Shown: positions 3,905-47,332 of the stretch, piece after piece
Numbering within the stretch: position 1 is the stretch's first letter
Layout of the letters: every line of letters starts with the position of its first letter
Assembly: GCF_000243155.2 (NCBI RefSeq)
Contig: NC_018017.1
Location: 2,294,001-2,358,000, forward strand
Reading direction: 5' to 3'
Length of the DNA: 64,000 bases
From: Desulfitobacterium dehalogenans ATCC 51507
GTDB lineage: Bacteria > Bacillota > Desulfitobacteriia > Desulfitobacteriales > Desulfitobacteriaceae
Program-made: the position numbers and the translations under genes
Notes under the pieces: generated by a model
What the model was told of the DNA's origin: nothing
What the model saw: the letters and a program-made list of their open reading frames with translations, nothing else
Database searches by the model: none

Positions 3905-4682
3905 GGTCTTCAATAAGGGAACTATCAACGAAAAGAAAGCCCTTGACCGTCTTTCCCTTGAGCTCGCCCCTGGAGACTTTGTCACTGTGATTGGTTCCAA
4001 TGGCGCAGGCAAGTCTTCCATGATGAACGCTATTGCCGGGGTGTTTATCCCTGATAGTGGAGAAATTTCTATTGATGGCACCACCATTACCAAATGGGCC
4101 TCCCATAAACGGTCGGGACTCATCAGCCGGGTGTTTCAGGATCCTTTATCAGGCACTGCCGCCTCGATGACCATTGAAGAAAATTTGGTTATGGCTTTGC
4201 GCCGGGGTGAGTCCCGTCGTCTGCGCTGGGCCTTAAATGTTAATAAACGAGATTACTTTCGTAATGAACTATCCAAACTGGGGTTAGGACTTGAAGGGCG
4301 CTTAACCACAAAAGTTAAGCTCTTATCCGGCGGACAACGTCAGGCACTGACCTTGCTTATGGCTACCCTTCAGAACCCAAAACTTTTATTGCTGGATGAG
4401 CATACCGCGGCTCTGGATCCCAAAACTGCCGAAAAAGTAATGGAGCTTACCTGCAAAGTGGCGCAAAGCTCCAAACTAACAACATTAATGATTACCCATA
4501 ATCTTGAACAGGCTCTTGCCGTAGGCAATCGGACAATTATGATGCATGAAGGTCGAATCATTCTTGATATTCGTGGCGTTGAACGTCATAACATGACCAT
4601 TGGCAGATTGCTGGATATGTTTGAAAAAGCCAGTGGTGTTCATATGAACAATGACCGGATGATGCTGGCCGGAACTCGTTAA
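3879..4682 (+). CDS. ABC transporter ATP-binding protein of the same importer
   Basis: A classic ABC ATPase of 267 residues: Walker A GSNGAGKSS near residue 39, Q-loop VFQDPL near 85, signature LSGGQRQAL near 149, Walker B LLLLDEHTAALDP near 168 and the switch histidine in MITHNLEQAL near 205. It energises uptake by the permease encoded just upstream. A GAGGAAGGGGG Shine-Dalgarno lies inside the end of the permease gene. The operon ends at a strong terminator 39 bases downstream. Confidence 0.93.
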   Translation: MLTVQNLTKVFNKGTINEKKALDRLSLELAPGDFVTVIGSNGAGKSSMMNAIAGVFIPDSGEISIDGTTITKWASHKRSGLISRVFQDPLSGTAASMTIEENLVMALRRGESRRLRWALNVNKRDYFRNELSKLGLGLEGRLTTKVKLLSGGQRQALTLLMATLQNPKLLLLDEHTAALDPKTAEKVMELTCKVAQSSKLTTLMITHNLEQALAVGNRTIMMHEGRIILDIRGVERHNMTIGRLLDMFEKASGVHMNNDRMMLAGTR

Positions 4683-30574: not shown

Positions 30575-30599
30575 CCAATCATCCCTCCCGAAAGAAAAT

Positions 30600-30621
30600 A
30601 ACCCAGGCCATATCCTGGGTT
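30600..30621 (-). terminator. terminator of the beta-oxidation operon
   Basis: Stem AACCCAGG / CCTGGGTT with a short loop, then a T-rich tract on the minus strand, 63 bases past the crotonase stop codon. Confidence 0.8.
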
Positions 30622-30683
30622 AGTATTCTATAGAATTGCAGCATTTCCTCTCTAAAACTAAGAGGTTCTATGATTATATTCCC

Positions 30684-31466
30684 CTACTTCCCCAGAAATT
30701 CAGTTTGCGTTTTCTCGAGAAAAGCCCTAAAACCATTTTTACGGTCTTCGGTATGGAAGGTCAGAGCAAATACCTCTGCTTCATAATCCTGCCCACTGAT
30801 GAGATCCATATTTGCCCCTTTATAAATTGCGCTTTTGGTTAACTGTACGGCGATTGGCGCTTTGGAGGCAATCCTCTTGGCCATAGCCATAGCTTGTTCC
30901 TGAAGGTCTTCTTTGGGATAAACCCGGTTAACCAGGCCCATGCGAAAAGCCTCCTGAGCATCAAACAGATCGGCTGTAAGGAGAATTTCACTGGCTCGTC
31001 CGCTCCCTACTAAACGCGGGAGCCGTTGTGTGCCGCCAAAGCCCGCCGGTATACCCAGGTTCACTTCCGGCTGCCCGAATCGGGCATTCTCACCGGCCAG
31101 TCGAATATCACAGGCCATCGCCAGTTCCAAACCTCCACCCAAAGCAAAACCATTAATGGCGGCAATGACCGGTTGGGGCAGACTCTCGATCAGATTCATC
31201 AACCTCTGTCCTAATTGGCTGAAAGACCTTGCTTCCATCGGGGTTTTCGTGTTCATTTCGGCAATATCGGCACCGGCTACAAAGGCTTTTTCGCCGCTTC
31301 CCGTAAGAATCACGACCCGTATGGAGGAATTATTGGCCAAATCATGAACGACCTGACTGAGTTCCTGCAAGGTAACCGTATTAAGAGCGTTTAAGGCTTT
31401 GGGGCGGTTAATCGTTACAGTGGCAATCTGCTCATGATATTCAACCAGGATATTCGAATACGTCAT
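30684..31466 (-). CDS. crt: enoyl-CoA hydratase (crotonase)
   Basis: It hydrates crotonyl-CoA to 3-hydroxybutyryl-CoA. At 260 residues it has the normal crotonase length. The oxyanion-hole segments AFVAGADIAEM near residue 62 and NGFALGGGLELAMACDIRLAG near 104, and both catalytic glutamates (PEVNLGIPAGFGGTQRL near 134 and RASEILLTADLF near 155), are present. It is last in the beta-oxidation operon, 10 bases after the thiolase gene, with GGGGGAG before ATG 31466. Confidence 0.95.
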   Translation of the reverse strand: MTYSNILVEYHEQIATVTINRPKALNALNTVTLQELSQVVHDLANNSSIRVVILTGSGEKAFVAGADIAEMNTKTPMEARSFSQLGQRLMNLIESLPQPVIAAINGFALGGGLELAMACDIRLAGENARFGQPEVNLGIPAGFGGTQRLPRLVGSGRASEILLTADLFDAQEAFRMGLVNRVYPKEDLQEQAMAMAKRIASKAPIAVQLTKSAIYKGANMDLISGQDYEAEVFALTFHTEDRKNGFRAFLEKTQTEFLGK

Positions 31467-31476
31467 ACTTCTCCCC

Positions 31477-32655
31477 CTATCTCTCTACAATCAGGCTAAC
31501 TCCCTGACCTCCGCCGATGCATAAAGTCGCAAGCCCTCGATGTCCATCCCGCCGTTTCAATTCATGAAGAAGGGTGACCAAGACGCGGGTGCCGGAAGCA
31601 CCGATGGGGTGCCCTAAGGCGATGGAGCCGCCATTGACATTAGTCTTTTCCACATCCAATCCCAGCTCCTGGGTAACGATAGCGGCTTGGGCGGCAAAGG
31701 CTTCATTGGCCTCCACCATGTCAATATCGGCAATGGTTAATCCGGCTTTTGCCAAGGCTTTTCGTGTCGCAGGGATCGGTCCGGTCCCCATGATCAGAGG
31801 ATCCACCCCGGCAGAAGCCCAAGAAGTGATTTTGGCCAGGACCGCTAATCCCAATTCCTCAGCCTTCTCTTTGGACATGACGACCACTGCAGCAGCTCCG
31901 TCATTGATCCCTGAAGCGTTGCCCGCAGTTACCGTACCCTCTTTCTTAAAGGCAGGCCTCAGCTTAGTTAAAGTATCGGCAGTAGTGCCGAAACGGGGGA
32001 ACTCATCCTGACTGAACACCAGAGGCTCCCCTCTTTTTTGAGGGATTTCCACAGGAACAATCTCTTCATCGAATAATCCGGATTGGATAGCGGCCTCAGC
32101 ACGGTTTTGACTGCGCAGTGCCAAAGCATCCTGATCCTCCCGGGAAATCTGGAATTGCTCAGCGATATTCTCGGCGGTCAATCCCATGTGAATATTATGG
32201 AAAGCATCGGTTAGACCATCCGTGATCATGGTATCCACCAGGCTGTCATTGCCCATTCGATATCCTTTTCTTGCTTTAAGAAGGGCATAGGCTGATGATG
32301 ACATGCACTCCATGCCGCCGGCGACAATAATATCCGCATCACCGGCCAGGATCGCCTGCGCCCCACAGATTACCGATTTAAGTCCGGAACCGCAGACCTT
32401 ATTCAGGGTCCAGGCGGGCACTTCTTGAGGAATTCCTGCTTTAATTGCTGCTTGTCTGGCAGGGTTTTGACCTGCCGCAGCACTGAGTACATTCCCCATA
32501 ATGACTTCTTCTACTTGTGCAGGCAGGATTCCGGCCCGTTTGATCGCTTCCTTGATCACGATAGCTCCCAGTTCGGCTCCTGTAAAGTTCTCTAAAGTTC
32601 CCCCAAAGGATCCAAGGGGTGTACGAACAGCACTGACAATCACTACTTCTCTCAT
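31477..32655 (-). CDS. acetyl-CoA acetyltransferase (thiolase)
   Basis: It cleaves acetoacetyl-CoA to two acetyl-CoA, or condenses them in reverse. The 392 residues include the nucleophilic Cys in [11 protein letters not shown] near residue 88, the His in [14 protein letters not shown] near 347 and the second Cys in LCIGGGQG near 378. ATG 32655 (MREVVIV) is preferred over an upstream in-frame ATG because GAGGAGG lies 7 bases before it and the product then matches the family N terminus. It is separated from the upstream CoA-transferase gene by a tandem 114-base repeat. Confidence 0.95.
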
Positions 32656-32692
32656 GACGTTCCTCCTCAAGGTAATGACACCTAAATTTTAT

Positions 32693-32920
32693 AAAGAAAA
32701 CCCGGCTTCGCCGAGCCTTAAATGCATGCTCGCAAATAAGGCGAAGTCGTTGGTTGCCCTTATGCTTAGAAAGTATATAGCGCAAGCTTATACTTTCTGA
32801 TAGTGTAAAGAAAACCCGACTTCACCGAGCCTTAAACGTATACTCGTAAATGAGGCGAAGTCGTTGGTTGCACTTATGCTTAGAAAGTATGTAACGCAAG
32901 TTCATACTTTCTGACAGTGT
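32693..32920 (-). repeat. tandem 114-base repeat (two copies) with conserved hairpins
   Basis: Copies at 32693-32806 and 32807-32920 are the same length and differ at about 13 to 15 positions, mostly transitions. Each has a hairpin of the form GTATA(T)AGC-GCAA-GCTTATAC near its end. In the second copy this is GTATG(T)AAC-GCAA-GTTCATAC, so two base pairs changed on both sides and pairing is kept. A second stem, GGCTTCGCC with GGCGAAGTC, lies in the first half. The repeat fills the intercistronic gap exactly from the stop codon of the CoA-transferase to near the thiolase Shine-Dalgarno. Confidence 0.9.
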
Positions 32921-34257
32921 TAAGCAAGCTTAGCAGTCCTTCTCCAGATACCCATTTTTTCTGCATCTTTAATCAGGTCATCGCGGAAATTGGGGTGAGC
33001 GATGGAAATCAGAGCTTCGGCACGTTCCCAGGTGGACTTCCCTTTCAAATTGACGATGCCGTGCTCAGTCACCACATAATTAACCATGGCGCGATGGGTT
33101 GTGACGATAGCACCGGGAGTTAATATGGGGTTAATCCGCGATCTTATCTCGCCATTCTTAGCTTTGTAGGTGGACTCTAAGCAGATAAAAGATTTACCGC
33201 CTTGGGAATGATAGGCGCCTAAAGTAAAGTCCACTTGTCCGCCTGTTCCGCTAATTTGACGAGTTCCAGAAGATTCTGAACATACTTGGCCGAATAAATC
33301 GACTTCGACGCAATTATTGATCGCGATAACATGATCATTCTTGGCTATGATCCAAGGATTGTTCACATAGTCTACAGGGTAAATCGCGCAACTGGGGTTG
33401 TTATGAAGAAAATCATAAGTTTTCTGAGTTCCCATAGAAAAAGTATAGGTTAGTTTATATCTATCAATCTGTTTTCTGGCGCCGGTAACACGTCCGGCTT
33501 CCACCATCTCCACAAAGGCCTCTGTCATCATCTCCGTATGGACACCCAAATCTTTGAGGTCGGATTGAGCAATAATCTTACCCATAGCATTAGGCATACC
33601 ACCAATACCCAGCTGAATGCAGCTTCCATCTACGAGCTCAGGCATAATAAATCCGGCTATTCTGTTATCCAACTCGGTAGGAGGAACGGGTTGAATCTGA
33701 GGCAACTCCCATTCTGTTTCCACGATATGATCCACAGCAGAAATATGAATGGCCTCTTCCAGACCGCCCAGGCAACGGGGTATTTTCGGATTCACCTCAA
33801 GAATAATGATTTTTGCTTTTTCCAGCATTGCTTTGGTATGAGAAACTTGAGGCCCGAAGTTAAAAAAGCCTTTCTCGTCCATGGGTGCTACCGGGATCAT
33901 GGCTACGTCCACATCAAGAAAACGTCGATAATAGCTGGGCAGTTCATTATAGAGGATCGGGCTGTACCAGCAAACTCCCTGATCGTGCAGTTTACGGTCT
34001 AAACCACTGAAATGCCAGTTATTATAAACGAAATGCCTAGCCTCCGGATCAACCTTGACCACCTCGGGCATCCTCACTGCCGTGACAGCCCGAATCTTTA
34101 CATCCTCAAGCTCATCTTTGCGAGCTGCCAAAGCTTTATCCAAGACAACGGGCTGACCGGTAAAGGAGCCATAATCCACCCAATCCCCTGATTTAACCAC
34201 ACTCACAGCTTTTTCCGGTGAAGTCAGTTTGCTTTGATACTCTTCTAAAATATTCAA
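32920..34257 (-). CDS. butyryl-CoA:acetate / 4-hydroxybutyrate-type CoA-transferase
   Basis: A 445-residue member of the acetyl-CoA hydrolase/transferase family. Landmarks are GDWVDYGSFTGQP near residue 24, the CoA-binding glycine motif QLGIGGMPNAMGK near 220, the region with the likely catalytic Glu (QVCSESSGT near 325) and ISGTGGQVDFTLGAYHSQGGKSF shortly after, which is typical of butyrate-class transferases. It would activate a short-chain acid by CoA exchange with acetyl-CoA, releasing acetate, which fits the acetate transporter gene next door. Substrate preference cannot be fixed from sequence alone. Confidence 0.9.
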   Translation of the reverse strand: MNILEEYQSKLTSPEKAVSVVKSGDWVDYGSFTGQPVVLDKALAARKDELEDVKIRAVTAVRMPEVVKVDPEARHFVYNNWHFSGLDRKLHDQGVCWYSPILYNELPSYYRRFLDVDVAMIPVAPMDEKGFFNFGPQVSHTKAMLEKAKIIILEVNPKIPRCLGGLEEAIHISAVDHIVETEWELPQIQPVPPTELDNRIAGFIMPELVDGSCIQLGIGGMPNAMGKIIAQSDLKDLGVHTEMMTEAFVEMVEAGRVTGARKQIDRYKLTYTFSMGTQKTYDFLHNNPSCAIYPVDYVNNPWIIAKNDHVIAINNCVEVDLFGQVCSESSGTRQISGTGGQVDFTLGAYHSQGGKSFICLESTYKAKNGEIRSRINPILTPGAIVTTHRAMVNYVVTEHGIVNLKGKSTWERAEALISIAHPNFRDDLIKDAEKMGIWRRTAKLA

Positions 34258-34369: not shown

Positions 34370-35008
34370 TTACATTTTTTTAGCATTGCCAACAGGTGCG
34401 GGGGCATTTTCTTTGATCCAAGGCTTTGTAAGAGGAAGTATCGTTTTACCGTATGTGGTATTTAAAATTAAGGCTGCCGAAAGATACATGGCCAGAATTC
34501 CTGCAAAGAGAAGAGCGTAGCCGGCTACAGGTTTGAATGCGGGGCTGAGGACTCCTAAATCGAGGAAAGCAACTTGGACAACGGCGATATCTACAAGAAT
34601 AACGATCATAGCTAGGATACTTGTTCCCTTAAAGTAAGCCGGAGTCCACATCACAAGACAAAATGCCAGAACGAGCCAAGCCCAGCCATCAATACGAGTA
34701 TCTAGGGGTATCGACCATTGTTGAGCTGCCGCGAAGTATTTAACAAAAAACTCCAATCCTCCGACAAGCATAAAAAATGCTGAAAAATATAGGAAAACGT
34801 TCCCACCGAGAATCTGACCTTCTTTTAACTCAATAGCACCGACAATGACTTGAGTAACAAAGCCGCCGATCAACCAACATCCCAGCAGAGGCATTGCTCC
34901 TGCAGTAACCTTGCCGCTTAACAAAGCAAAAAAAGTAAAGCAAGCAACCCCTAGAGCGACCAGACCTGCGGGCGAAGGATTTGCCCATCCCCCATTATTA
35001 TTCGACAT
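34370..35008 (-). CDS. acetate/succinate transporter, GPR1/FUN34/YaaH (SatP) family
   Basis: A 212-residue membrane protein with six hydrophobic segments and the family-defining N-terminal motif NPSPAGLVALG near residue 10. The family moves acetate and related small carboxylates with protons. Its place between the oxidoreductase and the CoA-transferase suggests export of acetate made by beta-oxidation, or uptake of short-chain acids. The start lies behind GAGGGG. The 98-base gap upstream contains a perfect 9-base palindrome at 35045-35064 that lacks a T tract. Confidence 0.93.
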   Translation of the reverse strand: MSNNNGGWANPSPAGLVALGVACFTFFALLSGKVTAGAMPLLGCWLIGGFVTQVIVGAIELKEGQILGGNVFLYFSAFFMLVGGLEFFVKYFAAAQQWSIPLDTRIDGWAWLVLAFCLVMWTPAYFKGTSILAMIVILVDIAVVQVAFLDLGVLSPAFKPVAGYALLFAGILAMYLSAALILNTTYGKTILPLTKPWIKENAPAPVGNAKKM

Positions 35009-35106: not shown

Positions 35107-37185
35107 TTAAGACATTCTTTCAACGAGAATCTCTGCAATATCCAATACCTTCACTCTTTCCACGGCCTCACGGGCAGCTATACCGTCATTGATCATGGTT
35201 AAACAGAATGGGCATCCTGTACTCACCACTTCTGTGCCTGCTGCCATGGCTTCGTCCGTGCGCATCTCATTGATACGTTGGCCATGATGCTCTTCCAGCC
35301 ACATTCTTCCGCCACCTGCACCGCAGCAGAAACTCTTCTCGTGATGACGAGCCATTTCGGTAATATGGAAGCCGGCAGCTTGAAGTAATCTTCTGGGTTC
35401 TGTGTAGATTGTGTTATAGCGGCCAAGATAACAGGAATCGTGATAGGTAACGGATCGAGTATTTAACCCCCTTTCCGAACCACCGCCTGCTTTATTAAGC
35501 TTTAATCTACCGGAGGCTAATAGTTCGTTTAAATATTCGGTATGATGAAGCACTTGATAGTTCCCGCCAAACTCAGGATATTCGTTCTTAAGAGTATTAA
35601 AACAGTGAGGGCATTGAGTAATGATGGTTTTTACTCCGTATCCATTCATCGTCTCAATATTTTCCTGAGCCAACGCTTGGAAAAGATATTCATTCCCTAA
35701 GCGGCGGGCTGAATCACCACAACATTTTTCCTCACTGCCTAAAATAGCAAAATTGACTTCCGCTGCCTTCAATAGTTTTACCAATGCTGCCGAGACCTTT
35801 TGATTCCGTGCATCAAAGGATCCGGAACAACCTGGAAAATAGAGAATTTCAGCCTCCGGATTTTCTTCCAGGGTTAAACATCCCACAGTTTTCAAAAAAT
35901 CTCCTCGAGAGGACCAACCAATTCCCCAAGGATTGCTGTTGTTTTCCATATTACGGAATGCTAATTGAGCTTCCGGAGGAAAACGTGATTCCATGAGCAC
36001 CAGGTTACGGCGCATATCAATGGTTTTGTCCACGTGCTCAATAAAGATTGGGCATTGTTCTTCACAGGAGCGGCAGGTAGTACAGTCCCAAAGATCTTCT
36101 TCGGGAATCACATCACCGATGAGATAAGGCAAACCCAGCTCTTCTTCAGTGAGAGCTTCTGCGGCGGCAGCAATTTCGCTTCCTTGTGCGGCGACCTCAA
36201 GGGCAGGCTTTGCCCTGTGAGCCTTTTTCAGCGCTCTACCTGTCTCTTCTATATAAGCACCCATATCCTGAATAATCTTTTTAGGATTCAGGTGTTTACC
36301 ACTTAAATAAGCCGGGCAGTTATCCTGGCACCTTCCACAGCGCAAACAAGCATCCGTGTTGAAAAGAGTCTTCCAGCTGAACTCACTAAGCTTGCTTTTT
36401 CCATAAGTTTCGAGACCCTCATCTTCAAAATCGATGTTCTCCGGGATGCCAATGGGACCATGGTGCCGTAGAAATTGATTGGCGGGCGCAAGGAAGATAT
36501 GGGAAAGCTTGGAGTAGGGAAAATACCCGAAAAAAAACATCACTAAAATGAAATGGAACCACCAGAGAAAAGCATGAATTCCTTCCAGGGTTGAATTGCT
36601 TAAGCCCTTGAAAAGCGGTGCCATAGCATACCCAACAAAAGCATACATACCCCAGGGATCTTCGATAGCTGCCATGCGGACAGCTTGGATGACAAAGCCA
36701 GTGAGTAAAATAGTGAGGATAAGAGCTAAGACAATGGCATCATCCTTTTTATTATCAAGGCGATCCGGACGCTGACCATAACGCCGCCAGATGGCCATCA
36801 GACAGCCAATGATGGCCAATAGCCCAAAAGCATTGGCAGTTATCTTGATAAAGATATAGAGACCGCCGTTAAACATATTGATCCCGAAGTCGGCCTGCAT
36901 AGCCACAATAATGGTTGCAAAAAACAGCAGCACAAACCCCCAGAAGATAAAAAGGTGCATTATCCCAGGGAAACCTTCTTTTAAGATTCTTTTGTGTCCT
37001 AATCCATAAACAAAGATATCGCCAATTCTTTTGACCATATTTTTCCTGCGGTTCTCTGGCTGTCCTATTTGCCACAATTTATAACGCTGATAAAAACCAT
37101 AGCAAAAAAAGCCGAGAGCTATGATCAACATAGGGTAAATCAGCCAGTGATGTTCAATATTCCAATAAAGCTCCCGTGTCGCCAT
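35107..37185 (-). CDS. membrane heme b/iron-sulfur oxidoreductase, ETF:menaquinone oxidoreductase (EMO) type
   Basis: A 692-residue fusion. Residues about 1-260 contain six membrane helices with histidines typical of the NarI-like cytochrome b domain. Two ferredoxin-type 4Fe-4S motifs follow (CLRCGRCQDNCP near 280 and CTTCRSCEEQCP near 372), then two heterodisulfide-reductase-type CCG domains (FPGCSG, KCCGDSA, QCPHC near 452-515; HDSCYLG, FCCGAGG, GCPFC near 585-657). Proteins of this build next to etfBA pass electrons from acyl-CoA dehydrogenases through ETF to menaquinone. ATG 37185 has GGGGAG 8 bases upstream. Confidence 0.9.
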   Translation of the reverse strand: MATRELYWNIEHHWLIYPMLIIALGFFCYGFYQRYKLWQIGQPENRRKNMVKRIGDIFVYGLGHKRILKEGFPGIMHLFIFWGFVLLFFATIIVAMQADFGINMFNGGLYIFIKITANAFGLLAIIGCLMAIWRRYGQRPDRLDNKKDDAIVLALILTILLTGFVIQAVRMAAIEDPWGMYAFVGYAMAPLFKGLSNSTLEGIHAFLWWFHFILVMFFFGYFPYSKLSHIFLAPANQFLRHHGPIGIPENIDFEDEGLETYGKSKLSEFSWKTLFNTDACLRCGRCQDNCPAYLSGKHLNPKKIIQDMGAYIEETGRALKKAHRAKPALEVAAQGSEIAAAAEALTEEELGLPYLIGDVIPEEDLWDCTTCRSCEEQCPIFIEHVDKTIDMRRNLVLMESRFPPEAQLAFRNMENNSNPWGIGWSSRGDFLKTVGCLTLEENPEAEILYFPGCSGSFDARNQKVSAALVKLLKAAEVNFAILGSEEKCCGDSARRLGNEYLFQALAQENIETMNGYGVKTIITQCPHCFNTLKNEYPEFGGNYQVLHHTEYLNELLASGRLKLNKAGGGSERGLNTRSVTYHDSCYLGRYNTIYTEPRRLLQAAGFHITEMARHHEKSFCCGAGGGRMWLEEHHGQRINEMRTDEAMAAGTEVVSTGCPFCLTMINDGIAAREAVERVKVLDIAEILVERMS

Positions 37186-37250
37186 ATCCCATACTCCCCT
37201 TTCCAATCCATGACCATTACCCTTTATCCTTACCTCTATTTTTTATTGAT

Positions 37251-37276
37251 GGGGGTACTGTCTTAGGACAGCACCC
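37251..37276. promoter_or_regulatory. hairpin in the etfA-EMO intercistronic gap
   Basis: Nested pairs GGGGT/ACCCC and CTGTC/GACAG around a TTA-containing loop, with no T tract on the minus strand. The 179-base gap 37186-37364 holds no other signal. It may tune relative expression of the genes on either side. Confidence 0.4.
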
Positions 37277-37364
37277 CATCTCCAACTTGAGTCCTCTCCG
37301 TTTACAGTGGTGAACTCCCGCTTCCAAGCTGCTCTAAATGGGTGAATTCCCCTGTCCAAATCTC

Positions 37365-38363
37365 TTACTCATTCACTAATTTCTGAAACTCTTCAGTAAG
37401 AAGAGGGACGACTTCAAACAAATCCCCAACGATACCATAATCGGCAACGTTGAAAATAGGAGCTTCAGGGTCTTTATTGATAGCAATAATGTACTTGGAC
37501 GCTCCCATGCCGGCTATGTGCTGGATAGCTCCGCTAATACCACAGGCCACATATAAGGTGGGGGCTACAATACTCCCTGTCTGTCCTACTTGAAATTGAT
37601 TATCAATCCATCCTGAATCCACTGCCGCTCTTGAAGCTCCTACTGCTCCCCCGACAACATCGGCTAATTTTTCAAGAATAGCAAAGTTTTCTTCCGCTTT
37701 CATGCCCCGACCACCGGAGACAACAAAATCTGCTTCAGTTAGGGCTGGTCGGCTGGTAACTATGAGAGCCACATCTTTCACAATGACCTTAAGATCTGCC
37801 GGGTCGATGTTTACCGTTGCTTCGATGACTTCGGTTTGCCTTGCCAGGTCCGGCTCTGATATTGGGAAAGATTTAGCCCTTACCGTAGCAAGACTTGGTC
37901 TACTTAAGATCTCTACAAAACTATAGGCACTGCCTGTATAAACAGGGCGTTTGTAGAGAAGGAATTTTTCCGGATCCACTTCAATATCGATAACGTCTGA
38001 GGCAAGGCCGATCCCTAGACGTTGGGCAAGACGAGGAGCTAAATCTTTTCCCACTGCCGTATGACCTAACAGGAAGGCTTGAGGCTCCTTTTCCTGAATA
38101 AGCTTTGCCAGAGCGGAAGTATAGGCGCCGGTGGTATACTGGGCCAATTGAGGGGAGTCCAGTAAGAAGACCTGGTCAGCTCCATAACTGGCGGCTTCCT
38201 GTGCCAAGTTGGAGATCCCATCCCCTGCAATGACCGCTACCAGTGGTTCCCCTGTAAGGTCAGCGATTTTCCGTCCTTGACTTAATATTTCCAAGGATAT
38301 TTTACGAACCTTCCCATCAGCTTGTTCGACAAATATCCAGATTCCCTTTGGCATATAACTCAC
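37365..38363 (-). CDS. etfA: electron transfer flavoprotein, alpha subunit
   Basis: A 332-residue protein. The N-terminal domain (about 1-200) is the ETF alpha/beta fold; the C-terminal FAD domain has the conserved [14 protein letters not shown] near residue 247, [23 protein letters not shown] near 268 and [20 protein letters not shown] near 302. With EtfB it forms the flavin carrier that takes electrons from the two acyl-CoA dehydrogenases encoded upstream and hands them to the membrane oxidoreductase encoded downstream. It lies 23 bases after etfB with GGAGTGAG before its ATG. Confidence 0.96.
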
Positions 38364-38386: not shown

Positions 38387-39160
38387 TTAGAGTACTTTAG
38401 CCTCTTCACGAAGGATTCGTGCTAATTCATGGGTGGCTTCCGCCGATTCACCAGGAAGGATTCTGCCCCCTTGTCTTGGATTAGGCAGAGTATATTGGGT
38501 AACTTTTGCCTGAAGCACTAAATCAGAGGGATCAAGTCCTAAGTCACTTAGTTTAAGGGTTGTCAGTGGTTTTTTCTTCGCTTTCATAATTCCGGCTACC
38601 GATGGATAACGCACCTCATTAATTCCTTGAACTACGGTGATGACAGCCGGTAGTGATACCTCAAGAGTTGCCAGACCTCCGTCGATAACCCGCAGGGCTG
38701 TTGCTTGACTGCCGTTAAGCTCAAGTTTGGTGACGCTACTGATCGAAGGAAGCTCTAATTTCTCGGCCATGCGCACGGCGACCTGAGCTGAGCCATTATC
38801 TGTATCCATGACTCCTGCCAGAATGATGTCGTAGGGAATGGTCTCCACCGCTTTGGCAAGTATGGCAGCGGCACTTCCTTCATCCACTTCCCCTAGGGCA
38901 GGGTCATTAATGTGAATCGCTTTATCGGCTCCCATGGCTAGGGCACTGCGGATTGTCGCTGTGGCTTGATCTCCCCCAAGGGTAATAACGGTTACTTCAC
39001 CGCCAAATTTCTCCTTCATTCGGAGAGCTTCTTCGATGGCGTACTCATCCAAAGGATTGATAACCAGAGTGACCCCATTGGCATCTATTTTTCCATCCTT
39101 GTTCAAGGCAATTTTAGCTTCTGTATCAATCGTTTGTTTAACGCATACCACAATGTTCAT
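38387..39160 (-). CDS. etfB: electron transfer flavoprotein, beta subunit
   Basis: A 257-residue EtfB with the family N terminus MNIVVCVKQTIDTE, INPLDEYAIEEALR near residue 35, GGDQATATIRSALAMGADKAIH near 62 and MDTDNGSAQVAVRMAEKL near 118. It pairs with EtfA and holds an AMP- or FAD-binding site depending on the ETF class. I cannot assign bifurcating behaviour from sequence alone, and the presence of EMO rather than a hydrogenase or Rnf gene argues for a simple menaquinone-linked path. It starts 11 bases after the acyl-CoA dehydrogenase gene. Confidence 0.96.
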   Translation of the reverse strand: MNIVVCVKQTIDTEAKIALNKDGKIDANGVTLVINPLDEYAIEEALRMKEKFGGEVTVITLGGDQATATIRSALAMGADKAIHINDPALGEVDEGSAAAILAKAVETIPYDIILAGVMDTDNGSAQVAVRMAEKLELPSISSVTKLELNGSQATALRVIDGGLATLEVSLPAVITVVQGINEVRYPSVAGIMKAKKKPLTTLKLSDLGLDPSDLVLQAKVTQYTLPNPRQGGRILPGESAEATHELARILREEAKVL

Positions 39161-39171
39161 AGGGTATCCTC

Positions 39172-40314
39172 CTACTCTTTTAAGACATGACTGCCGATGA
39201 CAATACGTTGTACTTCACTTGTTCCCTCATAAATCTCAGTGATCTTGGCATCCCGCATCATCCGCTCTACAGGATACTCACGAGTGTATCCATAACCACC
39301 GTGCATTTGGACCGCTTGAGTGGTTACCCACATGGCTGTCTCTGAAGCATGGAGTTTAGCCATAGCCGAAGCTTTGGAGACGGGCTTATGCTGGGTAGCC
39401 AGGTAAGCCGCTTGATAAACCAATAAACGGGCAGCCTCGATCTGAGTGGCCATATCCGCTAATTTAAATTGATTGGCTTGGAAATGAGCGATGGGCTGGC
39501 CAAATTGTTCTCTTTCTTTAGCATATTTTTTGGCTTGCTCATAAGCCCCTTGGGCAATGCCTAAGGCTTGGGAGGCAATGCCGATTCTGCCGAAGTCCAA
39601 GGTGACCATGGCTACTTTAAACCCTTGTCCTTCCTGGCCTAAGAGATTTTCCGCCGGGACCCTAACATTATCAAAGACCAATTCATAAGTGGCCGAGGAG
39701 CGGATCCCCATCTTTTTTTCTTTCTTGCCAAAAGTAAAGCCCGGCATGCCTTTTTCTAGAATGAAAGCAGCGATTCCCTTATTCCCTTTGCTTTTATCCA
39801 TCTGGGCAGTAACCACATATGTATCGGCTTCATAGGCGTTGGTGATAAAAATTTTGGTGCCATTGATGATATAATCATCGCCATCCTTAACTGCGGTGGT
39901 TCGGGTTCCTGAGGCATCAGAACCGGCCATGGGTTCAGTTAAGCCAAATGCCCCCATTTTCTCTCCACTTGCCAATGGGACAAGATATTTTTGTTTTTGT
40001 TCTTCCGTACCAAAGAGGTAGATAGGATTAGCACATAAACTGGAATGAGCGGACACAGTTACTCCAACTGAGGCGTCTACCCGTGATAATTCCTCAATCG
40101 CTATGGCGTAGGACAAATAATCAGACTCCACACCGCCGTATTTCTCGGGAAAAGTGATTCCCGCCAGACCCAATTCCGCCATTTTGTTCCATATCTCACG
40201 AGGAAATTCTTCTTTTTCATCCCGTTCTTCAGCGCCTGCTGCACACTCATTCTCAGCAAAATCCCTTACCATTTTCCTCATCATGACATGGTCTTCGCTT
40301 AAATCAAAAATCAT
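39172..40314 (-). CDS. acyl-CoA dehydrogenase (short-chain/butyryl-CoA type)
   Basis: A 380-residue flavoenzyme oxidising acyl-CoA to enoyl-CoA with ETF as acceptor. It shows FAD/substrate signatures [15 protein letters not shown] near residue 124 and [14 protein letters not shown] near 195, the [23 protein letters not shown] segment near 340, and the catalytic Glu in [17 protein letters not shown] near 365. Together with its paralogue at 41218 it brackets hbd. Length and motifs match short-chain butyryl-CoA dehydrogenase. GAGGGGAG precedes its ATG. Confidence 0.95.
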
Positions 40315-40356: not shown

Positions 40357-41196
40357 TTAATAGGCATAGAAACCTCTTCCCGTTTTTCTCCCCAACCAAC
40401 CTGCCTTGACATATTTTCTCAATAAGGGACAAGGTCGGTACTTATCTCCAAGCCCTTCATGAAGCACTTCGCAAATAGCAAGTACAGTATCCAAACCGAT
40501 AAGATCCGCCAGCGCCAAAGGGCCCATGGGGTGATTGGCTCCCAGCTTCATGACATCGTCGATAGCCTCCGGTTTGGCAATCCCTTCGTTAAGCGTCCAA
40601 ATCGCTTCGTTAATCATCGGAATCAGAATACGATTAGCTACAAAGCCCGGGGCATCATTGACTTCTACGGGGGTTTTCCCCATAGCAACGCTCAGGTTTT
40701 CAATCTCCCTATAGACCTCATCACTGGTTGCCAGTCCGCGAATGATTTCCACAAGCTTCATCACAGGGACCGGATTCATAAAATGCATGCCAATCACTTT
40801 GTCCGGACGCTTGGTGCAAGCTCCGATTTCTGTGATAGGCAATGAGGATGTGTTGGAAGCCAATATAGTATGCTCTGGGCAAAGTTTATCTAGGGTTTGA
40901 AAAATTTCCGATTTAATAGTCATATTTTCAATAGCTGCTTCGATGACTAAATCGGTTTGAGCCGCATCTTGAAGAGAAACACTGGCCTGAAGCCGTCCGA
41001 GGATGGTTGTTTTTTCTTCGGAAGAGAGTTTGCCCTTTTCCACGCTGCGGTCCAAGTTCTTTTCAATCCCTTTAAGACCGCGGGCTACAAACTCCTCCTT
41101 GATATCATTGAGGATCACGGCGTACCCTGCTTGAGCGGCCACTTGGGCAATTCCGGAGCCCATTTGCCCTGCTCCGATGACCATAATCGTTTTCAT
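40357..41196 (-). CDS. hbd: 3-hydroxybutyryl-CoA dehydrogenase
   Basis: A 279-residue NAD(P)-dependent enzyme oxidising 3-hydroxybutyryl-CoA to acetoacetyl-CoA. The Rossmann motif is [18 protein letters not shown] (residues about 7-24), and the catalytic histidine is in [17 protein letters not shown] near 138. The C-terminal dimerisation domain has [19 protein letters not shown] near 184. GAGGAGG precedes ATG 41196, 21 bases after the upstream acyl-CoA dehydrogenase. Confidence 0.96.
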
Positions 41197-41217: not shown

Positions 41218-42363
41218 TTAGATTTTATTTCTTAAATGTTTGGCAATGACAATCCGCTGAATTTGGTTTGTACCTTCATAGATCTGGGTAATCTTGGCAT
41301 CCCGCAGATAACGTTCTATAGGATAATCTGTGATGTAACCATTTCCCCCGAAGATCTGCATAGCATCATTGGTTACTTTGACCGCCATTTCAGTAGCAAA
41401 TAATTTGGCCATGGAGGCCTCTTTACTGTAAGGCAATCCCTGGACCCGGTTGGCTGCGGCCTGATACACCAATAAACGAGCGGCTTCCAGTTGAGTAGCC
41501 ATATCCGCAAGCATGAATTGAATCCCTTGGAAATTCATAATCTCCTGTTTAAATTGAACCCTCTCCTGAGCATAGGCCAGAGCCGCTTCAAAAGCGGCCT
41601 GAGCAATCCCCACAGCCTGGGCTCCAATCCCTATTCTGCCATCGTCAAGTAATGCCATAGCGATTTTAAACCCCTGTCCTTCTTCCCCCAATCTGTTTTC
41701 AACAGGGACAACCATATCCTCAAAAATCAATTCACAAGTGGATGAGCCGTGGAGCCCCATCTTCTTCTCCTTTTTCCCTATGATAAAACCGGGGGTACCC
41801 GCATCTACTAGAAAAGCTGTAATTCCACGTGAACCTTTCGTACGGTCGGTAGAAGCCAGCACTGTATAGACCCCGGCATAGCCTGAATTGGAAATAAAGC
41901 GTTTGCTGCCATTGATCACATAATGATCACCACGGCGCTTTGCAGTTGTTACTAAACTCGAAGCATCGGACCCTGAGTTGGGTTCCGTGAGTGCAAAGGC
42001 TCCAAGCATCTCTCCTCTGGCAAGTTTCGGCAAATACTTCTGTTTTTGTTCTTCCGTACCAAAATAAAAAATAGGAAAAGTGCCAATGGTTGTATGAACC
42101 GCCATGATTATGGTAGTGGAGGCACAACCCCGGGCGAGTTCCTCAATGGCTAAGGTGTAAGAAATAAAGTCTGAACCGGCCCCTCCATATTCCTCCGGTA
42201 TAGGGATTCCCATAAGTCCCAGTTCGCCCATCTTATGTACTAACGTCAAAGGAAACTCGTGACTTTCATCGGTATAAGCTGCTTGGGGAATTACCTCTTC
42301 CTCTACGAAATCTCTTACCATTTTTCTCATCATTATTTGATCTTCCGTAAGGTTAAAGTTCAA
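41218..42363 (-). CDS. acyl-CoA dehydrogenase, first gene of the operon
   Basis: A 381-residue paralogue of the dehydrogenase at 39172, with the same signatures ([52 protein letters not shown] and the catalytic Glu in [17 protein letters not shown]). Having two divergent copies in one operon suggests different chain-length or branched-chain specificity. It starts at TTG 42363 with AAGGAGG 8 bases upstream. A perfect sigma-54 promoter lies 78 bases before the start. Confidence 0.94.
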
Positions 42364-42440
42364 TGAACGCGACCTCCTTGCAGAGTATCTATTTTGGTAT
42401 CCCTAGAAATACCTGAATCTTATAAATTATCTGTTTATAA

Positions 42441-42456
42441 TGCAAATTACGTGCCA
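42441..42456 (-). promoter_or_regulatory. sigma-54 (-24/-12) promoter of the beta-oxidation operon
   Basis: On the minus strand the sequence is TGGCACG-TAAT-TTGCA, an exact match to the sigma-54 consensus including the invariant GG and GC with correct spacing. The predicted transcript starts near 42430, giving an untranslated leader of about 65 bases. The adjacent sigma-54 activator gene supports the call. Confidence 0.93.
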
Positions 42457-42566
42457 ATGTGAATTAGATTTTTATCTCAAGTTCATGAAGGACCTGAATT
42501 CATTGGTTTATTTTCTAAATTTTTAAAATATTTCATCTATTTGTACATGTGAACTCAAAGTTTATA

Positions 42567-42655
42567 TGTCTCAAAAAACGGACATTATTTTGACAAGAAA
42601 TTAAAAAAGGCTGGAATTCCAGCCTTTTACATCCCTATGTCCACAAAAAAGGACA
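42567..42655. promoter_or_regulatory. pair of inverted-repeat sites, candidate enhancer sites for the sigma-54 activator
   Basis: Two 18-base sites of the form TGTC-N10-GACA (42567-42584 and 42638-42655) with A-rich centres, identical at 13 of 18 positions. They lie about 110 and 180 bases upstream of the -24 element, the usual distance for activator-binding sites. Confidence 0.55.
42604..42628 (-). terminator. terminator of the sigma-54 activator gene
   Basis: Perfect palindrome AAGGCTGGAATTCCAGCCTT with a T tract on both strands, between the two inverted-repeat sites. Confidence 0.85.
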
Positions 42656-45034: not shown

Positions 45035-45187
45035 TTACGGCTCAAGAGGATCGTACAAATTCTCCGTCACATTCTGAACCACTTCTTGGGTCAGGCCCTG
45101 TTTAGGGTTGGAGAGCGTGATCCCTGCCGATTTGCCGCCGCTGGTCAGGAAAGATAACCTGATCACACGGTTCGTTGAAATAGGCAA
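45035..45187 (-). CDS. DUF2922-like small protein
   Basis: About 50 residues with the family pattern VIRLSFLTSGGKSAGITLSNPKQGLTQEVVQNVTENL. DUF2922 genes usually sit directly behind a DUF1659 gene, and here the end of a DUF1659-like frame lies just upstream. The start is uncertain: TTG 45187 has GGGGGTG 6 bases before it; GTG 45196 would add three residues but overlaps that site. The role of the pair is unknown. Confidence 0.7.
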   Translation of the reverse strand: MPISTNRVIRLSFLTSGGKSAGITLSNPKQGLTQEVVQNVTENLYDPLEP

Positions 45188-45227
45188 TATATTCACCCCC
45201 TTCCCTGAGACATTTTTCCAGGGTCCT

Positions 45228-45410
45228 TACTCCTCTTCAAGCAGCTGTGAGTTCCTGCTTACGGTGATATCCACAACCTGATCCGTCACCAGGCTGAACA
45301 GCGCGGTGGCGATCTCGTGGAGGTCCTCATCCGTAGCCGTGGACTTCAGGCCGGTGATGCCCTTCTTCCTGATCAACGGGCTGCCGGAAGGCGTGGTCCC
45401 TGTCTCGCCT
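45228..45410 (-). pseudogene. 5'-truncated DUF1659-like gene
   Basis: In the frame different from the DUF3102 gene, the minus strand encodes TPSGSPLIRKKGITGLKSTATDEDLHEIATALFSLVTDQVVDITVSRNSQLLEEE followed by a stop. The normal N-terminal 10 to 20 residues and start codon are missing, because a stop codon closes the frame near 45414, exactly where DUF3102 sequence begins. It looks like the downstream half of a deletion joint. Translation could only come from an internal start. Confidence 0.7.
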
Positions 45411-45698
45411 CAAATTACCAACTGGCTGGTAATTTGCATCACCTTTGCCTGAGGTGAGCAACTTAGGCCCATATTCCTCATAGAGGCGCATGAGATTCCT
45501 GGCTGTGCTTCGGGAATAGCTCACTGACTCCGCCAGCCATTTCAGCCATTCCCCATGGGGCAGCAGGGCCTTGGCTTCCTTTAGGCGCTTGCCGATCTCC
45601 ACGGCGCTGATCAGCAGAATTCTACAAGCCTGCTGTCTTATAATCAGAATTTCCGTAGCGATATTTGAGGGCTTGCGTTCGGTGTTCATAGGATTCAT
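45327..45698 (-). pseudogene. DUF3102 protein, 3' end replaced by out-of-frame DUF1659 sequence
   Basis: Residues about 1-90 match DUF3102 (ISAVEIGKRLKEAKALLPHGEWLKWLAESVSYSRSTARNLMRLYEEYG), a DNA-binding-like family often linked to mobile or phage genes. After YQPVGNL near residue 95 the sequence becomes Arg/His/Glu-rich and is simply the DUF1659 gene read in another frame. The expected continuation of the family is absent, so the gene is truncated by deletion. GGGATGGG lies before ATG 45698, and a 10-base inverted repeat at 45727-45755 lies in its promoter region. Confidence 0.75.
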
Positions 45699-45726
45699 TT
45701 TGGCTACCCATCCCTTTTGATGCTTT

Positions 45727-45755
45727 TTTATAAACTATGTGGCCAAGTTTATAAA
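45727..45755. promoter_or_regulatory. inverted repeat upstream of the DUF3102 gene
   Basis: TTTATAAACT (45727-45736) and AGTTTATAAA (45746-45755) are exact complements separated by 9 bases. It is centred about 43 bases before the start codon and is a candidate operator, perhaps for self-control. Confidence 0.5.
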
Positions 45756-45774
45756 AGTGAGGGATTGTACGCAA

Positions 45775-45806
45775 AAAAGCCGTTGTCAGCAGACAACGGA
45801 GCTTTA
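45775..45806 (-). terminator. Rho-independent terminator
   Basis: Stem CCGTTGTC / GACAACGG with an AGCA loop and T tract on the minus strand. It separates the LysR/Xre fragments from the DUF3102 gene. Confidence 0.8.
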
Positions 45807-45870
45807 TAAATCAAATTATAGATCGCCACGATATTCAGCTTTTTAGAATCATCCCGAGGCTATCCTGATA
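45805..45870 (-). repeat. 66-base duplicated fragment of the LysR-type gene
   Basis: Matches 46382-46447, inside the LysR pseudogene, with only about 8 differences and no gaps. It is isolated from any open frame here. Confidence 0.85.
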
Positions 45871-45925
45871 CATTTCCCTACCACCATCAATTTCCCCGGT
45901 AGTTTTAGTCCCTAATTCAAGCAAT

Positions 45926-46051
45926 TTAGATGGCTTTATCCGCAAGTTGGTCTTGAGTCATGCCCTCCCTCTTGCGATAATAGGCAATATTCAATCCAAG
46001 AGCTATATATTTATCTCTGTTTTCAAGGGCAATTTTTGTACTTCTGGCCAT
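45926..46051 (-). pseudogene. truncated Xre-type helix-turn-helix protein
   Basis: A 41-residue frame with GAGGTG 7 bases before ATG 46051. It reads like the first part of an Xre repressor (ALGLNIAYYRKREGMTQDQLADKA) and stops within the first half of the helix-turn-helix, with no continuation in any frame nearby. It could still be translated but cannot form the complete DNA-binding domain. Confidence 0.7.
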
Positions 46052-46182
46052 ATACAATCACCTCAGTAAAAGCTTATCGCGCAACGCAGCCGATATACAT
46101 AAGCTGATTAAGAACTATCTTGATAGGTGTAAGGAGTAATGCAACCAATATTATTTCGAGGGAAAATAAGTACCCCTTGAAT

Positions 46183-46790
46183 TCAGATTTCTTGGCGCAT
46201 TTTCTCCAAGAATTTCTCTGCCGCTTTCGAAAACACCTGATATTTCTTCCAAACGATATTTAAATGCGCTTCTACTCGTGGCTCCAGTGGCTTAAAACAA
46301 AGACCGCTGGAGCTGGTGGTGTTCATCTGTTTATCCAAACACAGCGCATAGCCAATCCCTTCCTCTACCATGAGCACTGCATTATAAATCAGATTATAGG
46401 TCGCCACGATATTCAGCTTTTCAGAATCATCCCGAAGCCATCCCGATAGTTCATTACCGGCAAGAGCCTGTCTGGAGCAGAGCAGTGGTATATCCCGCAG
46501 GTTCTTTGGCCCTATGCTGTCCAGAGCGGCCAGGGGGCTGTCTTTTCTCATCAGTAAACCCCAGGTATCTGTTGCCGGAAGACGCAGATAATCATATTTT
46601 TGGATGCTCGCCGACCCAATAATGACTCCGAAATCCAATAGCCCTTTATCATTACATCATCGGCATTCCCGCTGTACAGATGATACTGGATATGGGGATG
46701 TTCTTCCTGAAGTTTTTTTACTACTTTGGTAATAAGCCGCATGGCATCTGTTTCCCCGCTGCCTATGTAAATATCCCCGTTGATGAACCC
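46183..46790 (-). pseudogene. LysR-type regulator, N-terminally truncated and frameshifted
   Basis: The minus strand encodes a LysR effector-binding domain in two frames: GDIYIGSGETDAMRLITKVVKKL upstream, then after a small deletion near 46636-46650 LDFGVIIGSASIQKYDYLRL through to the C terminus KFLEKMRQEI. The DNA-binding helix-turn-helix domain (about 85 residues) is absent; sequence beyond about 46790 belongs to the opposite-strand lipoprotein gene. It cannot act as a transcription factor. Confidence 0.85.
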
Positions 46791-46795
46791 TATGC

Positions 46796-47332
46796 GTGAT
46801 TGCTTTGATGGGTTGCTCGAATAACCCTCCGTCAAACTCACCAGCGTCTGCGCCGTCTGTAAGTACCTCCGCACCTTCCTCAACTCCGACAGAATCGTCA
46901 AAGCCCTCCCCTCCTCCGGCAGAATCGGGCACACAGGAACCACCGCCTGCGGAGCAGGATACGCAAACAGAACGTAATGCCATGCCAAGCTTAACCCTTC
47001 GCATTGGCAACAAAAATTTCAGGGCAACCTTATATGACAATGATTCGACACGGGCGCTGCTGAAGAAGCTGCCCCTGACCTTGACTATGGATGAACTGAA
47101 CGGGAACGAAAAGTTCTACTTTTTTTCAGAAAAGCTTCCTGCCGCCAGTGAACGGGTAGGGAGTATCAAGACCGGTGATTTGATGCTCTACGGCTCCGAC
47201 TGCCTGGTGCTGTTTTATGAGAGTTTTCCCACTTCGTACAGCTACACAAGGCTTGGCACCATTGACGATGTGACCGGATGGACCAATGCTCCGGGGAGCG
47301 GCAGTGTTGAAGTGACTTTTAGCATTAACTAA
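46796..47332 (+). CDS. lipoprotein with cyclophilin-like domain, signal peptide shortened
   Basis: A 178-residue frame. The lipobox is LMGC only seven residues from the first usable codon (GTG 46796); an in-frame stop lies 9 bases before it, so the usual 15-residue signal peptide is missing. A Pro/Ser/Thr-rich linker (residues about 8-60) leads to a cyclophilin-like beta barrel: LRIGNKNFRATLYDNDSTRALLKKLP near 65, KTGDLMLYGSDCLVLFYESF near 125 and YTRLGTID. The intact domain but lost N terminus points to truncation at the LysR junction. Export is doubtful. Confidence 0.75.
   Translation: MIALMGCSNNPPSNSPASAPSVSTSAPSSTPTESSKPSPPPAESGTQEPPPAEQDTQTERNAMPSLTLRIGNKNFRATLYDNDSTRALLKKLPLTLTMDELNGNEKFYFFSEKLPAASERVGSIKTGDLMLYGSDCLVLFYESFPTSYSYTRLGTIDDVTGWTNAPGSGSVEVTFSIN

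Follow-up and report, generated by a model that had tools for sequence, protein, structure and literature searches.

A predicted sigma-54 switch with a linked activator and enhancer-like palindromes at a C4 beta-oxidation operon of Desulfitobacterium dehalogenans

The window analysed here is a stretch of 64,000 nucleotides of the D. dehalogenans ATCC 51507 genome (NC_018017.1, positions 2,294,001 to 2,358,000). It contains an operon of ten genes, all on the minus strand, that runs from a first acyl-CoA dehydrogenase to a crotonase (Table 1). The intergenic gaps measure 10-158 bp, except for one of 249 bp between the CoA-transferase and thiolase genes. As proposed in the initial annotation, which had been made from the sequence without database searches, the short-chain beta-oxidation set is complete: thiolase, crotonase (the enoyl-CoA hydratase), HBD, two acyl-CoA dehydrogenases, EtfBA and a CoA-transferase for CoA activation are all present, with the C4 substrate length taken from the best-matching families, several of which score under their cut-offs. 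The relatives of the CoA-transferase in the PDB are 4-hydroxybutyrate CoA-transferases. By comparison with its S. wolfei analogue Swol_0698 (PMC3582634), the DUF224 protein is probably an Etf:menaquinone oxidoreductase. A hairpin in the gap between etfA and the DUF224 gene (37207-37364) was considered as a terminator and rejected, as it is followed by AATAAAAAATAG and not by a T-tract, and its fold z is only -1.4.

Table 1. Features of the activator and operon region, in 5' to 3' order on the minus strand, and a second sigma-54 site elsewhere in the genome. Positions are those of the window unless a locus is named.
Feature	Position	Strand	Remarks
Sigma-54 activator (EBP), 703 aa	42703..44814	-	CBS - PAS - PAS - AAA+ - Fis HTH (Pfam)
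Predicted enhancer (UAS 1) TGTCCTTTTTTGTGGACA	42638..42655	-	TGTCY-N8-RGACA palindrome, centre ~-216
Intrinsic terminator of activator gene, between both predicted enhancers	42605..42628	-	10-bp stem then TTAATTTCTT
Predicted enhancer (UAS 2) TGTCCGTTTTTTGAGACA	42567..42584	-	TGTCY-N8-RGACA palindrome, centre ~-145
Sigma-54 promoter -24/-12 element TGGCACGTAATTTGCA	42441..42456	-	Exact consensus; GG-N8-TTGCA conserved in 15 of 15 orthologous spacers
Short-chain acyl-CoA dehydrogenase 1	41218..42363	-	TTG start after AAGGAGGT
3-Hydroxybutyryl-CoA dehydrogenase (HBD)	40357..41196	-	NF004474, 469 bits, over cut-off 408
Acyl-CoA dehydrogenase 2	39172..40314	-	
Electron transfer flavoprotein beta subunit (EtfB)	38387..39160	-	
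Electron transfer flavoprotein alpha subunit (EtfA)	37365..38363	-	
DUF224-type membrane iron-sulfur oxidoreductase	35107..37206	-	Pfam: haem-b-like domain, 4Fe-4S, two CCG
YaaH/AceTr acetate transporter family, weak match	34370..35008	-	Under cut-off in both libraries
Butyryl-CoA:acetate CoA-transferase-like protein	32920..34257	-	TIGR03948, 630 bits, cut-off 675
Insert, two tandem ~120-bp dispersed hairpin repeats	32671..32919	-	23 matching genomic places; fold z = -7.1
Acetyl-CoA C-acetyltransferase (thiolase, thl)	31477..32670	-	
Short-chain enoyl-CoA hydratase (crotonase, crt)	30684..31466	-	
Intrinsic terminator closing the operon	30599..30622	-	9-bp stem then TTTTCTTTCG
Second sigma-54 site with divergent PAS-EBP	L062 11178-15555 (G000:C1 ~537-541.6 kb)		Before CoA-transferase and thiolase

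A -24/-12 element of the GG-N10-GC form, TGGCACG-TAAT-TTGCA, lies upstream of the operon, 77 nt from the TTG start of the first acyl-CoA dehydrogenase gene, which agrees with the 78 bases given initially. Transcription is predicted to start at about 42430. The initial annotation had reported an exact-consensus site at this place and no such site before any other gene cluster of the window, and both statements hold. The pattern TGGCACG-N4-TTGCW has a single exact match in the window, and the weighted -24/-12 score of this site, 17.5 of 17.8, is the maximum over all positions, the runner-up reaching 15.3. Weaker look-alikes with two mismatches are found at 4342 and 45423, and window matches with up to three mismatches are no commoner than in shuffles (57 versus 73). 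The whole genome (4,321,753 bp) contains five exact matches, compared with none for a reversed-pattern control, and a single copy of rpoN. At least three of the five have an EBP gene no more than about 2 kb away: the present site, one at 175746 that precedes a permease-like gene, and one at 539859 that precedes a CoA-transferase/thiolase pair and whose divergent neighbour encodes a PAS-AAA+-Fis EBP.

The next gene upstream encodes, as first proposed, a sigma-54 activator. Its product combines a sigma-54 interaction AAA+ domain (Sigma54_activat, E=8e-73) with a Fis HTH, two PAS domains and a CBS domain, and no receiver domain was found in the Pfam scan. The best NCBIfam model is PrdR (NF041552), which covers residues 254-700 with 553 bits, below the cut-off of 795, and the AtoC model (NF008469) gives 346 bits against a cut-off of 714. 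The identification of the EBP as PrdR or AtoC was therefore dropped, both scores being under the curated cut-offs. The sensor part differs among relatives: CBS and two PAS domains are observed in Desulfitobacterium and in genome G009, more distant members of the family have CBS and a single PAS, and the EBP of Acididesulfobacillus/CEB3 has no CBS match. The region 5' of the activator gene (45035-47040) is a patchwork of gene fragments, among them a DUF3102 protein and a LysR substrate-binding fragment, with a short piece that recurs between 45.8 and 46.4 kb, and suggests decayed or inserted DNA.

The spacer between the activator and the first gene of the operon measures 339 bp and harbors, in order, one palindrome, the activator terminator, a second palindrome, an AT-rich stretch and the promoter. 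The two 18-bp palindromes, of the form TGTCY-N8-RGACA, were overlooked in the initial annotation and are centred about 216 and 145 bases 5' of the predicted start. They are likely enhancers, to judge by the statistics of the predicted sites and by their position 100-250 bp upstream. Clostridial UAS have been reported at distances of 100-250 bp and in the form TGT-N10-12-ACA (PMC6615313), and since the palindromes at -145 and -216 fit both the distance and the form, we count them in favor of a sigma-54 switch, the anatomy of which they complete. Over the whole genome, TGTCY-N8-RGACA is no more frequent than expected by chance (16 places, a control pattern having 15), and only this spacer contains a closely spaced pair, 71 bp apart. 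A regulon of several operons under the same EBP is thus unsupported.

We searched for homologues of the EBP in 61 genomes and read 20 loci. In 14 of them the EBP gene is followed by beta-oxidation genes, giving 15 spacers including that of the window. The pattern GG-N8-TTGCA was found exactly once in each of these 15 spacers, compared with a shuffle expectation over all of them of 0.46 on average and 3 at most in 300 shuffles. Strict palindromes number 16, in 10 of the 15 spacers, whereas 232 kb taken from elsewhere in the loci contain none and shuffles give 0.007 on average; as the motif was derived from these same, mutually related loci, the counts measure conservation and not independent events. 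EBP paralogues without adjacent downstream beta-oxidation genes (L048-L053) have neither a palindrome nor a promoter match within two mismatches. In these comparisons, promoter, activator and operon have been kept together across the family. In a relative from the same genus (L047, G003:C1:2012000-2031000), the orthologous EBP is broken by a transposon-like insert, and a further copy of this element separates etfA from the DUF224 gene. This locus lacks the first acyl-CoA dehydrogenase and keeps the promoter and palindrome. It constitutes a natural test case for activator loss.

The exact consensus, the five genomic matches compared with none for the control, the adjacent EBP, the single rpoN and the conservation in 15 of 15 spacers support a sigma-54 switch. 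At the level of sequence, the promoter, palindromes, conservation and gene content can be regarded as established, and we estimate at about 0.85 the probability that a sigma-54 switch with its activator and enhancers drives the C4 operon, most likely toward oxidation. RpoN-RNA polymerase would be held in a closed complex at TGGCACGTAATTTGCA. The CBS-PAS-PAS-AAA+-Fis activator may bind both palindromes, in the 3' flank of its own gene, and then loop to the promoter and open it using ATP, presumably in response to a cytoplasmic signal sensed by its CBS/PAS domains. The transcript would encode a reversible C4 beta-oxidation pathway and end at the terminator after crt, with the DUF224 protein coupling Etf to menaquinone. 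In the likeliest direction, butyrate or crotonate would be oxidised and the electrons passed to menaquinone.

The consensus match might instead have arisen by chance, with a sigma-70 promoter driving the operon. By our own estimate, a genome of uniform base composition would contain about one exact match by chance, and a weak sigma-70-like match is found at 42525-42553, although such matches are no commoner than in shuffles. However, the site is conserved in all 15 loci, each time beside an EBP gene and in 10 of them together with palindromes. In view of this conservation we rejected a chance match, an origin that we consider highly improbable. The extent of the unit is less clear. The initial annotation had about 12 kb (42363 to 30684) switched on as one unit, and the co-regulation that this implies is supported by published proteomics. 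The cluster ACL20879-ACL20889 of D. hafniense DCB-2, which includes the sigma-54 regulator and which we equated with the present one gene for gene by annotation and order only, rose 2- to 47-fold with H2/acetate relative to lactate, as measured by comparing H2/fumarate with lactate/fumarate (PMC9888536). The reported changes are 20-fold for crt, 17-fold for thl, 19-fold for the CoA-transferase, 4-fold for DUF224, 23-fold for EtfA, 19-fold for EtfB, 47-fold for an acyl-CoA dehydrogenase, 13-fold for HBD, 2-fold for the first acyl-CoA dehydrogenase and 4-fold for the EBP; ACL20882, at the position of the YaaH-like gene, is absent from the proteomics table (PMC9888536). The stoichiometry is uneven because the first acyl-CoA dehydrogenase and DUF224 rise just 2-4 fold. 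This co-induction supports co-regulation, and neither butyrate as inducer nor a direction of the pathway. Against a single unit, the repeat insert before thl may cut read-through in this genome, which leaves the extent unsettled. The insert, which resembles a REP/MITE-type element, is possibly an attenuator within the operon. It folds strongly, many repeat copies have a conserved CGGCGAAGCCGGGTTTTCTTT-like end, with GGGTTTTCTTT as a frequent terminal sequence, and the gap at the same place in the close relative G002 is only 24 bp. The sigma-54 unit could thus end at the CoA-transferase, with thl and crt mostly expressed from elsewhere. We regard this as unlikely, as repeat copies lie in every orientation relative to genes, including between same-strand genes, which makes a dedicated terminator role doubtful. 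Moreover, no sigma-70-like promoter was found on the operon strand in the gap before thl, and thl and crt rise with the rest in DCB-2, though DCB-2 may lack the insert. One 12-kb transcript is therefore likely, though not assured.

The same sigma-54 switch could also serve synthesis, from acetyl-CoA through butyryl-CoA to butyrate via the CoA-transferase, which on H2/acetate would provide an electron sink or a route to energy. The known inducing condition in DCB-2, H2/acetate, counts against the oxidative direction, and its authors favour butyrate synthesis (PMC9888536). The CoA-transferase is similar to butyryl-CoA:acetate transferases, the solved structures closest to EtfA and to the first acyl-CoA dehydrogenase include bifurcating Etf-type complexes, and the operons known to be under sigma-54 control in clostridia carry annotations for synthesis (PMC6615313). 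On the other hand, DCB-2 is not known as a butyrate producer, and the DUF224 protein of the Etf:menaquinone type suits respiratory oxidation; in the scheme for S. wolfei, DUF224 and EtfAB take the electrons of butyryl-CoA to menaquinone (PMC3582634). Butyrate and crotonate are reportedly used as donors in the genus Desulfitobacterium (PMC3306737), and growth on butyrate is described for A. acetoxydans (PMC8982180), in which a related locus (L046) is found. Synthesis is hence a possibility of some weight but the less probable one; we favor oxidation about two to one, without considering the matter settled. More tentatively, and with some doubt, the family-wide one-component CBS-PAS EBP might sense internal energy or acyl-CoA/redox state, not external butyrate, and switch a bidirectional menaquinone-linked C4 pathway. 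If so, the same operon would oxidise or form butyrate according to electron supply, via DUF224. The sigma-54 switch supplies a definite set of regulator, enhancers and promoter with which the control of C4 acid metabolism can be tested in organohalide-respiring Desulfitobacterium and in sulfate reducers related to it, and it suggests a mechanism behind the co-induction of the cluster in published D. hafniense proteomes.

AtoC of E. coli is the sigma-54 activator of atoDAEB, a short-chain fatty acid catabolic operon, and the present locus likewise associates a sigma-54 activator with a short-chain fatty acid operon. AtoC is a two-component response regulator, whereas this EBP carries CBS/PAS sensors. 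The closest curated EBP model, PrdR, is the proline reductase regulator of C. difficile, and its target operon differs. Butyrate oxidation in S. wolfei similarly involves acyl-CoA dehydrogenases and an EtfBA adjoining a DUF224 membrane iron-sulfur protein, but there the genes are scattered and the DUF224 protein is described as constitutively expressed (PMC3582634), whereas here they form one EBP-linked operon. Sigma-54/EBP control of butyrate-type operons, by CrbR, XcgR and YctR, was described in Clostridiales by Nie et al. 2019, with CrbR and XcgR using the same kind of palindrome (PMC6615313), and a 2025 survey found the predicted sigma-54 regulons of Clostridia to be enriched in beta-oxidation enzymes (PMC12316311). 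The Clostridium system shares with the present one an EBP, multiple upstream TGT-ACA palindromes, a sigma-54 promoter and a C4 acyl-CoA operon; it differs in being a synthesis operon with no DUF224 gene in the listed operon (PMC6615313). Beta-oxidation operons of Desulfitobacterium or Desulfosporosinus do not appear in the main-text table of that study (PMC6615313). The regulator-operon pair described here is thus absent from that table, yet plainly of the same kind as the clostridial cases, and its sigma-54 control is well supported as an ordinary case of a regulation known in clostridia.
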